Assembly: GCF_006715095.1 (NCBI RefSeq)
Contig: NZ_VFMO01000001.1
Location: 1,798,001-1,862,000 of the forward strand
DNA: 64,000 nt
Reading direction: 5' to 3'
Origin: Yimella lutea
GTDB taxonomy: Bacteria > Actinomycetota > Actinomycetes > Actinomycetales > Dermatophilaceae
The notes beneath the pieces are model-generated. The model searched no databases. It was not told the origin of the DNA and saw nothing but the letters and a program-made list of their open reading frames with translations. Shown in pieces: positions 1,749 to 4,173 of this stretch (position 1 is the first letter of the stretch; each line of letters begins with the position of its first letter). Made by a program: the position numbers and the translations under genes.

Positions 1749-2516
1749 TCAGGCCCACTGACCGCGTTCCTGCAGAACGGTTTTCAGCAGGTCGGCACGG
1801 TCGGAGATCAGGCCGTCGACGCCGAGGTCGAGCAACTCGTGCATCTCCTCGGGGTCGTTGATCGTCCAGACATGCACCTGTACTCCGGTGCTGTGCGCCC
1901 GCTGCACCAGCGCTCTGGTCACCACGGTCACCCGACCATAGTGATGGGGGATCTGCAGAGCGTCGACCGGGCCAAGTGCTCGGCGCGCCAGCGGGGAGAA
2001 CCGGGCCTTTGCGGCCAGCACAGCGGTGCGAGTCCGACTCTTGCCGGCCGAGGTCGCCACCGGTCTCGACAGTCGCTTGAGCACCTCGTGACGCGTGTGA
2101 TCGTCGAACGACGCGACAAGGACGCGGTCGTGCGCCGCGTGCTTCTCGATCGTGTCGGCAAGGGTCTCAGCGGCGCTGATGTGCTTGCAGTCAATGTTCA
2201 GACGGAGGGCGGGCCAGGCATCCAGCACGTCGTCGAGGCGGGGCACGGGCTGATCGCCGATACGGGCGAGCTCGACCGTGCTCCAAGGCAGTTCGCGGAT
2301 CAGCCCGTGCGCATCGGTGACCCGGTCGAGGGTGTCGTCGTGGAAGGCGACCAGCATGCCGTCCGACGTGACGTGCACATCGGTCTCGACATAGGCGAAA
2401 CCCAGATCGACCGCCTGCTCGAAGGCAGCGAGGGTGTTCTCGTGGCCGTCGACCGAGAAGCCGCGATGCGCCATCGCGATCGGGGCCGGGTGATCGAAAT
2501 ACGCCGTACGTGCCAT
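1749..2516 (-). CDS. Glycerophosphodiester phosphodiesterase
   Basis: A 255-residue GDPD-family TIM barrel that hydrolyses glycerophosphodiesters to glycerol 3-phosphate and an alcohol. The N-terminal AHRGF motif, ENTLAAF, ETDVHVT and FHDDTLDR segments carry the His/Glu/Asp metal and acid-base residues; WTINDPE and GLISDRAD close the barrel. No signal peptide is seen, so it should be cytoplasmic. The frame is open further upstream, but that stretch lies inside the MurA-like gene and looks non-coding. The ATG at 2516 begins at the expected N-terminus, 11 nt after the MurA-like stop codon, so the two genes are probably cotranscribed and translationally coupled. Confidence 0.88.
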   Translation of the reverse strand: MARTAYFDHPAPIAMAHRGFSVDGHENTLAAFEQAVDLGFAYVETDVHVTSDGMLVAFHDDTLDRVTDAHGLIRELPWSTVELARIGDQPVPRLDDVLDAWPALRLNIDCKHISAAETLADTIEKHAAHDRVLVASFDDHTRHEVLKRLSRPVATSAGKSRTRTAVLAAKARFSPLARRALGPVDALQIPHHYGRVTVVTRALVQRAHSTGVQVHVWTINDPEEMHELLDLGVDGLISDRADLLKTVLQERGQWA

Positions 2517-2527
2517 GGGCGCGCTGC

Positions 2528-4054
2528 TCAGTCGCGGAAGGACTCGATCTTCGCGCCGAGGTCGTTGAGGCGCTCGGCGAGCTCCTCGTAGCCACGGTTG
2601 ATGACGTAGGTGTTGCGCAGCACCGAGGTGCCCGGTGCGGCGAGCATGCCCAGCAGGATGACGACTCCCGGACGCAGCGCCGGCGGGCACATGACCTCGG
2701 CCGCGCGCCAACGGGTCGGGCCCTCGATGAGCACGCGGTGCGGGTCCATCAGCTTGACCTTCGCACCGAGCGCGTTGAGGTCGATCAGGTAGATCGCCCG
2801 GTTGTCGTACACCCAGTCGTGGATCGTGGTGCTGCCGGTCGCAGTCGCCGCGATGACGGCGAAGAACGGCAGGTTGTCGATATTGAGGCCGGGGAACGGC
2901 ATCGGGTGGATTTTGTCCTTCGGCGCCACCAGATCGCTCGGGATCGTGGTGATGTCGACCAAACGGGTCTCACCGTTCTTCGACAGGTACTCCTGGCTCA
3001 TCTCGTACTGGAAGCCCATGACCTCCAGCTGAGCCAGTTCCATCTCCATGAACTCGATCGGCACGCGCTTGACGGTGATCTGCGACTTGGTGACGATCGC
3101 GGCTGCGATGAGCGACATCGCCTCGATCGGGTCCTCGGACGGGTGGTACTCGACGTCCTTGTTGATCTCCTTGACGCCGGTGACGGTCAAGGTTGTCGTG
3201 CCGACGCCCTCGACCTCGACACCGAGTTCGCGCAGGAAGAAACAGAGGTCCTGAACCATGTAGTTCGGGCTGGCGTTGCGAATGATGGTGGTGCCCTCAT
3301 AGCGGGCGGCCGCGAACAGTGCGTTCTCGGTGACGGTGTCGCCGCGCTCGGTGAGCACGATGGCACGCTTGGGGCGCACCTCGCGATCGACGGTCGCGTG
3401 GTAGTAACCGTGCGTCGCGACGACGTCGAGGCCGAAGTGGCGCAGCGCGTGCAGGTGCGGCTCCACGGTGCGCTCACCGAGGTCGCAGCCGCCGGCGTTC
3501 GGCAGCTTGAACTTCTCGTACTCGTGCAGCAGCGGGCCGAGGAACATCAGGATCGTGCGGGTGCGGCGGGCAGCTGCCTCGTCCATCGAATCGAGGTCGA
3601 TGGTGTCGCCCGGGACGATCTCCAGGTCGGAGCTGTTCGGCAGCCAGCGGGTCTTCACGCCGATCGAGTCGAGCACCTCGGTGATGCGGTTGACCTCTTC
3701 GATGCGCGCAAGGTTGCGCAGCGTCGTCTTCCCCTTGTTCAGCAGAGCCGCACACAGACACGCGACTGCGGCGTTCTTGCTGGTGCGTACGTCGATCTCA
3801 CCCGAGAGCTGACGCCCGCCTTCGATGCGAAGGTTCAGGGGAGTGTTCGATGCCACGGTTACCACCTCGGTGTCGAGAGCCTGTCCGATCCGCGCGAGCG
3901 TCTCCAGACTCAAGTTCTGTTTGCCTTGTTCGATGCGCGCGACGGCGCTCTGACTGGTGTTCAAGGATGCTGCAAGTTCGTGCTGGGTCAGTTGTTTGTG
4001 GCGCCGCGCGTCGCGAATGATGCGGCCGACGCGTACCAGATAGTCCTCAGTCAC
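2528..4054 (-). CDS. XRE helix-turn-helix fused to MurA-like enolpyruvyl transferase
   Basis: About 508 residues in two parts. Residues about 1-65 form an XRE/Cro-type helix-turn-helix (TQHELAASLNTSQSAVARIEQGK). The rest is a complete EPT fold like UDP-GlcNAc 1-carboxyvinyltransferase. The MurA active-site features are kept: SKNAA (UDP-sugar/PEP contact), GGCDLGERTVEPHL with the catalytic-loop Cys, and the ALRPG plus NRGYEEL segments near the C-terminus. From memory, similar fusions occur widely in actinobacteria beside a normal MurA, so this is probably a second, DNA-binding paralogue. The GTG at 4054 is preferred over the GTG at 4072 because a TACGCT box sits 6 nt upstream and relatives start at the TEDYLVR region. 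A perfect palindrome overlies the promoter, suggesting autoregulation (inference). Confidence 0.88.
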   Translation of the reverse strand: MTEDYLVRVGRIIRDARRHKQLTQHELAASLNTSQSAVARIEQGKQNLSLETLARIGQALDTEVVTVASNTPLNLRIEGGRQLSGEIDVRTSKNAAVACLCAALLNKGKTTLRNLARIEEVNRITEVLDSIGVKTRWLPNSSDLEIVPGDTIDLDSMDEAAARRTRTILMFLGPLLHEYEKFKLPNAGGCDLGERTVEPHLHALRHFGLDVVATHGYYHATVDREVRPKRAIVLTERGDTVTENALFAAARYEGTTIIRNASPNYMVQDLCFFLRELGVEVEGVGTTTLTVTGVKEINKDVEYHPSEDPIEAMSLIAAAIVTKSQITVKRVPIEFMEMELAQLEVMGFQYEMSQEYLSKNGETRLVDITTIPSDLVAPKDKIHPMPFPGLNIDNLPFFAVIAATATGSTTIHDWVYDNRAIYLIDLNALGAKVKLMDPHRVLIEGPTRWRAAEVMCPPALRPGVVILLGMLAAPGTSVLRNTYVINRGYEELAERLNDLGAKIESFRD

Positions 4055-4060
4055 TCCGGG

Positions 4061-4066
4061 AGCGTA
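4061..4066 (-). promoter_or_regulatory. Putative -10 box, leaderless start of HTH-MurA gene
   Basis: On the minus strand TACGCT is followed by exactly 6 nt and then the GTG at 4054. This TANNNT-6-start layout is typical of leaderless actinobacterial mRNAs. No clear -35 is visible. Confidence 0.4.
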
Positions 4067-4082
4067 TCTCACATATGAGATA
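4065..4082. promoter_or_regulatory. Candidate autoregulatory operator (TATCTCA-N4-TGAGATA)
   Basis: A perfect inverted repeat with 7-bp arms around CATA lies immediately upstream of, and overlapping, the putative -10 box of the HTH-MurA gene. Its size and position fit a dimeric XRE-type repressor site that would block RNA polymerase. No other gene start is close, so the fused HTH domain is the natural candidate ligand. Confidence 0.5.
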
Positions 4083-4138
4083 TCGACGGGATTCAGAGCA
4101 GTTTGTTCAGCGTAACGCTGATCACCCCTTCGACACGA

Positions 4139-4173
4139 AAGGCGCGACCCGTCACGTGGACAGGTCGCGCCTT
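4139..4173 (-). terminator. Hairpin terminator after fadJ-like gene
   Basis: An 11-bp stem (AAGGCGCGACC / GGTCGCGCCTT) with a 13-nt loop lies just downstream of the stop codon at 4190 on the minus strand. Confidence 0.55.

Follow-up and report, generated by a model that had tools for sequence, protein, structure and literature searches.

HTH-MurA gene and its upstream region

The window (the whole stretch of 64,000 nucleotides of the Yimella lutea genome that was analysed; contig NZ_VFMO01000001.1, positions 1,798,001 to 1,862,000) carries on its minus strand a gene whose product joins a helix-turn-helix (HTH) domain to an enolpyruvyl transferase (EPT) domain of the MurA type. This protein is called HTH-MurA below. 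The features of the locus, in window positions, are as follows:

1749–2516, minus strand: glycerophosphodiester phosphodiesterase (GDPD) gene (PF03009, 152.9 bits), its ATG 11 nt after the stop codon of the MurA gene
2528–4054, minus strand: HTH-MurA gene, 508 amino acids, GTG start; the only MurA found in the genome by the TIGR01072 search
2540–3832, minus strand: MurA (enolpyruvyl transferase) domain, residues 75–505, with the catalytic Cys190 in GGCDLGER
3866–4018, minus strand: Xre-type HTH domain (HTH_3, PF01381), residues 13–63, 43.1 bits against a cut-off of 23
3923–3958, minus strand: presumed recognition-helix stretch TSQSAVARIEQG, residues 33–44, with TSQ invariant in a 62-sequence alignment
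4061–4066, minus strand: −10 box TACGCT (TAnnnT), 6 nt before the GTG; the transcript is probably leaderless
4065–4082, no strand assigned: predicted palindromic operator TATCTCA-N4-TGAGATA (18 bp), from orthologue comparison

The fusion of the two domains, read from the sequence in the earlier note, is confirmed by profile matches on one and the same chain. The N-terminal part is assigned to the Xre/Cro-CI type by the HTH_3 profile, whose curated cut-off is clearly exceeded, and PF00275 matches residues 78–496 with 154 bits (cut-off 22.8). The TSQSAVARIEQG stretch is taken by us to be the recognition helix on the basis of the Xre/434-repressor fold. Translation is assigned to the GTG at 4054 (VTEDYLVRVG...) by alignment of the orthologues, and not to the in-frame GTG at 4072, with which the listed open reading frame begins. 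The linker between the HTH and MurA domains (residues 64–70) is of low confidence in the structure model, and the fold search effectively covered residues 71–508. Several orthologues are named "helix-turn-helix domain-containing protein" by NCBI, so the fusion is already annotated.

The C-terminal part has the EPT fold of the MurA type. It scores 329.9 bits with the curated subfamily NF006873 (PRK09369; 297 required) and 64.4 bits with the AroA equivalog TIGR01356, far under the cut-off of 287.25. Its score with the MurA equivalog TIGR01072 (about 310.8 bits) is below the cut-off of 392.7, which is a threshold for naming and not a biochemical criterion. The MurA active site, features of which were pointed out in the earlier note, is well preserved: of the 13 positions checked, 12 (Lys22, Asn23, Arg91, Cys115, Arg120, Glu188, Asp231, Asp305, Arg331, Leu370, Arg371 and Arg397 in E. 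coli numbering) keep the MurA residue with at most one exception among 119 orthologues. These active-site positions were mapped onto the alignment by eye. At the thirteenth, the equivalent of E. coli Asp369, 118 of the 119 orthologues have Ala and one has a gap.

The DNA upstream of the gene, read on the minus strand, is TATCTCATATGTGAGATACGCTcccggaGTG. It runs from the palindrome (4082–4065) through the TACGCT box (4066–4061) and a gap of 6 nt to the GTG at 4054. The box begins with the last TA of the palindrome, that is, the two elements overlap; palindrome, box and spacing all lie at the positions first reported for them. The exact sequence TATCTCANNNNTGAGATA is found at one place only in the 3.53 Mb genome. 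With up to three mismatches 13 places are found (the exact one, two with two mismatches and ten with three), against 3 for the pattern read backwards.

MurA copy number

The protein had been labelled a paralogue of MurA, which presupposes a separate housekeeping gene. Search of the complete genome of Y. lutea with PF00275 yields two genes. The second (1319639–1320868) was considered as the housekeeping MurA and rejected: it scores 375.1 bits with TIGR01356 (cut-off 287.25), is hence AroA, and adjoins the gene of RsgA. No second murA was found in this complete genome by the TIGR01072 search, in which the AroA gene gives weak matches only; MurB is present. The earlier note had counted the lack of a second murA among the refutations of its proposal; the label of paralogue is refuted by it, while the proposal of an autorepressor attached to it stands and becomes more interesting.

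The same pattern is common in the family. A match to HTH-MurA at E 1e-100 or better is present in 170 of 186 family genomes (a count that includes G361, where the HTH is deleted, and lines with an altered helix), and a MurA above the TIGR01072 cut-off in 55. HTH-MurA alone is present in 128 genomes, one of which (G031) has pieces of a classical MurA; both kinds are present in 42, the classical kind alone in 13, and neither in 3 incomplete genomes. The corresponding figures for the 162 genomes of good quality (completeness of 90% or more and contamination of 5% or less, as rounded figures) are 116, 35, 11 and 0. All 11 good-quality genomes with classical MurA only belong to genus g32 (G460–G469, G033), which is devoid of HTH-MurA and has two classical MurA matches per genome. 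HTH-MurA was found in 59 of the 216 genomes of a class-wide sample; for 20 of these 59 (15 of family f24, 4 of f1 and 1 of f119) only one MurA match is listed, at the strength of HTH-MurA or below.

The best reading of these distributions is that HTH-MurA is the sole, housekeeping MurA of the cell, with a predicted enzymatic activity. The score below the TIGR01072 cut-off and the replacement of Asp369 by Ala could also be expected of a dead MurA domain retained as the sensor of a pure regulator. We regard this as highly improbable: in many good-quality genomes, among them the complete genome of Y. lutea with its MurB, no other MurA was found, and not one of the 162 good-quality family genomes is without both kinds. 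Moreover, the active site is intact in locus L027 although its recognition helix is altered.

Conservation of the operator and its loss together with the HTH

Of 121 orthologue loci, a set that includes the locus of the window itself and a few loci fetched twice, 116 have a best upstream match to the palindrome of 11 or more of 14 positions, and 117 one of 10 or more; dinucleotide-shuffled upstream regions reach at least 11 of 14 in 30 of 12,100 cases. The template was the window's own sequence, and these figures accordingly measure likeness to that sequence. A score of 11 or more is reached by 218 upstream sequences in 146 clusters. In these, none of the 40 columns preceding the site holds more than 0.35 bit, and most columns of the site together with the TA...T of the −10 box hold 1.3–2.75 bits. 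Selection at this score favours the 14 template columns; the centre of the site (1.3, 2.0 and 2.2 bits) and, with 2.2 bits, the final T of the −10 box are free of that selection and conserved as well. Since the likeness exceeds that of the shuffled controls and columns outside the template are conserved too, the palindrome is more than a chance occurrence. Its conservation near the same distance upstream of orthologues, on which the earlier note had made its proposal depend, is therefore observed. The families with a conserved operator are Dermatophilaceae, Intrasporangiaceae, Ornithinimicrobiaceae, Nocardioidaceae, Streptomycetaceae, Actinopolymorphaceae and Streptosporangiaceae.

The arrangement of the promoter is conserved with the operator. 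A TAnnnT box stands directly at the operator end in 214 of 216 distinct operator-bearing loci, and in 206 of the 216 the first in-frame start codon follows the box after 6–8 nt, the spacing by which leaderless genes are recognised. The promoter probably follows the leaderless-gene pattern.

In a phylum-wide sample, exact ATCTCANNNNTGAGAT is present at the promoter of this gene in nine of the twelve genomes with an orthologue, and eight of the nine have no further exact copy; G215 has a second one elsewhere. The exact core is missing in G040, G193 and G236, and the sites of G040 and G236 (L042, L036) match 12 of 14 positions. There are 46 genomes of the sample with an exact match, 37 of which are without an orthologue and fall outside the single-target count. 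Judged by these exact-site counts, HTH-MurA looks like a regulator with a single target.

The right arm of the operator is moved outwards by 2 nt in 14 distinct loci (L055, with TATCTCA-N6-TGATCTA, L057, L058, L065 and relatives; those with names are Ornithinimicrobium and Serinicoccus), an odd change for the site of a dimer.

Joint presence and loss of helix and site were followed in 283 loci; L299 was dropped, being the same place as L043, which left 282 loci, 259 of them distinct. A helix was counted as intact if it starts with [T/S][S/A]Q, and an operator as present at 10 or more of 14 positions. Intact recognition helix and palindrome occur together in 251 of the 259 distinct loci. The HTH is altered or deleted in seven (L027, L253, L288 and four of one genus: L043, L304, L305 and L306), and none of the seven has the palindrome. 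An intact helix with a decayed site is seen at one locus (L028/L066, genome G007). In every genus with losses another member keeps both helix and operator: G355 (L216) next to the loss genomes G193, G353, G354 and G356; G365 (L232) and G366 (L245) next to G021 and G364; and G011 (L012) next to G361. The gene persists in all seven loss genomes, each of which has a single MurA match. In G361 (L288) the N-terminal HTH and the operator are gone, possibly in one deletion that took the HTH and the promoter region, and the MurA domain, the only MurA match of this genome, is kept. In the other six loss loci (L027, L043, L253 and L304–L306) a TAnnnT box is still readable 6–7 nt before the start codon.

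Helix and site also tend to change together. Position 3 of the site is A in all 25 distinct loci with T or G as helix residue 7, and T in 116 of the 117 with Ala. Family f102 breaks this rule: nine of its loci have His and five have Asn, all of them with A at position 3, and 13 of the 14 show the change in the left arm alone. Perfect covariation between residue 7 and position 3 was considered and given up, as 35 additional loci broke it, and the relation is reported as a tendency. On a tree of 118 MurA domains made without f102 the site type agrees with the helix in 115 of the 115 rows tested, and the T/A switch requires four changes, two of them on well-supported branches; independent switches are so few that a sign test cannot reach 0.05.

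Given this conservation, and the absence of the palindrome from the loci that have lost the HTH, binding of the protein to the palindrome in its own promoter is very probable.

Proposed autorepression, its alternatives and known systems

MurA, which fosfomycin targets, stands at the entry to cell wall synthesis and is usually described as a monomer. We consider it likely that in Y. lutea this sole housekeeping enzyme represses its own gene, with its probably leaderless promoter, through binding of its HTH to the palindrome, in a negative autoregulation. Two HTH heads would bind TATCTCA-N4-TGAGATA and keep RNA polymerase off the −10 box of the enzyme's own gene; a rise of the enzyme would lower transcription, and the level of an essential enzyme would thereby be fixed. 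As MurA is usually monomeric, binding as a dimer must come from the HTH. Repression is favoured as the sign of control because the palindrome overlaps the −10 box. We infer DNA binding, dimerisation and this sign from comparison of sequences. Self-repression, as put forward in the earlier note, is supported by the conserved operator, its loss together with the HTH and the overlap with the −10 box; the part that does not hold is that it would take place beside a separate housekeeping MurA.

The opposite sign deserves consideration, since the palindrome is situated immediately before the −10 box, in the region between the −35 and −10 elements where activators of the MerR type act. The conserved columns show no −35 hexamer, and the promoter may thus need help. 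The site, however, overlaps the −10 box itself. Furthermore, the seven loss lines keep the gene and six of them keep a readable TAnnnT box, so the promoter seems to work without operator or HTH. Activation by the HTH is accordingly judged unlikely.

Autorepression could be refined by feedback in which UDP-GlcNAc, PEP or UDP-MurNAc held in the MurA domain controls DNA binding by the HTH; the two readings are compatible. The intact catalytic domain speaks for such gating, as does the existence of MurA structures with UDP-GlcNAc and UDP-MurNAc in the PDB, by which a metabolite-dependent change of shape is possible. A precedent is PutA, which proline switches between enzyme and repressor according to passages of PMC8249747. 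On the other hand, the modelled linker of low confidence gives no sign of a rigid coupling, and autorepression without a ligand accounts for the observations. Ligand-gated feedback is therefore put forward tentatively, plain dose-dependent repression being somewhat more likely. That bound UDP-GlcNAc, PEP, UDP-MurNAc or fosfomycin sets the grip of MurA on its own operator is, in this more specific form, possible and rather doubtful; if true, peptidoglycan flux, inhibition by the drug and murA transcription would be tied together in one protein, with neither a kinase nor a second messenger.

Autorepression would make HTH-MurA a trigger enzyme, with a single target by the exact-site counts: enzyme and DNA-binding domain are united in one chain, and a cognate operator in the target promoter is recognised by comparison (conservation, joint loss with the HTH). 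PutA, BirA and NadR of E. coli are described in PMC8249747, in the part consulted, as enzymes doubling as transcription factors; PutA resembles HTH-MurA in having its own gene among its targets and one bound region. In contrast with all three, the own promoter is the only evident target of HTH-MurA. They also differ from it in enzyme, pathway and DNA-binding domain, which in PutA is a ribbon-helix-helix; HTH-MurA would act at the first step of the wall pathway. A weak NCBIfam match on the HTH is PRK08154, and the PRK08154/BzdR type (HTH and shikimate-kinase-like domain) likewise has an Xre-type HTH before an enzyme-like fold. In that type the enzyme-like part is a sensor; in HTH-MurA it is the one MurA that was found in the cell. 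Compared with classical MurA (E. coli, Enterobacter cloacae), to which its identity is about 24–30% in structural alignments, HTH-MurA has the added N-terminal HTH and its score under the TIGR01072 cut-off.

One known control of an actinobacterial MurA acts at the level of the protein, by CwlM in mycobacteria (PMC12723410, in part); with a MurA that binds DNA, the committed step would be subject to direct feedback on transcription. The prediction is sharp, with a single operator at a single promoter, and concerns a protein of wide distribution in actinobacteria, many of which show no other MurA. In the open-licence PMC literature no paper was found that deals with DNA binding by HTH-MurA or with regulation of its own gene.

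Judging by the name, MurA2 of Streptomyces (SCO5998, sven5810, vnz_28735) probably belongs to the same family. The Streptomyces loci match over residues 1–508 at about 69–71% identity, with HTH and operator, and the four named Streptomyces genomes searched have a classical MurA in addition to HTH-MurA. In the passages seen of the respective papers, murA2 is targeted by BldM-WhiI, which footprints on its promoter (PMC4125116), is a predicted target of DmdR1 (PMC12161575) and is SigB-dependent with a SigB promoter (PMC8346170); the exploration phenotype of whiI overexpression was not reproduced when murA2 was overexpressed (PMC11005364). These passages place murA2 in sporulation control; they do not describe it as a regulator and make no mention of an HTH or of autorepression.

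The reported footprints, DmdR1 site and SigB promoter raise the question of whether the palindrome is the target of another regulator, the HTH having some other role. We think this very unlikely. BldM sites are of the form TCACcCgnncGgGTGA in the part of PMC4125116 seen and do not resemble the palindrome; losses of helix and site coincide, as do most of their switches; and the exact core is unique in eight of the nine orthologue genomes that have one.

A separate element, TCACCCGAA, which starts like the BldM half-site TCACcCg (PMC4125116, in part), begins 28–30 nt before the operator in 14 operator-bearing loci among L034–L041 and L055–L134 (L037, L039, L040, L087, L096, L097 and eight more of the Streptomyces group). 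An activator and the putative autorepressor may share the promoter in these loci.

The earlier note also placed the downstream GDPD gene under the same control. With a gap of 11 nt this is plausible here, and the gene is probably co-transcribed with murA in this genus. The arrangement is local: a same-strand downstream GDPD gene is seen in 17 of 121 loci, with flanks of 1.5–3 kb (shorter in a few). A fatty-acid-oxidation gene lies upstream in 36 of the 121 loci, with flanks of limited length. Between this gene and murA of the window an inverted repeat (AAGGCGCGACC...GGTCGCGCCTT, 4139–4173) is present, perhaps a terminator that separates the two genes; L004 has a version of it with 15-bp arms.

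The next best site in the genome of Y. lutea is a similar palindrome with two mismatches, TGTCTCAGATATGAGACA (L136, G000:C1:87469-87486). It lies about 9 nt upstream of an open frame of an IclR-type regulator, and was rejected as a target of a wider regulon, being probably that regulator's own site. A second small palindrome, TCAGCGTAACGCTGA (4107–4121), is situated 25 bp upstream of the operator and occurs only in three loci of the own genus (L003–L005) among the 283 loci examined.
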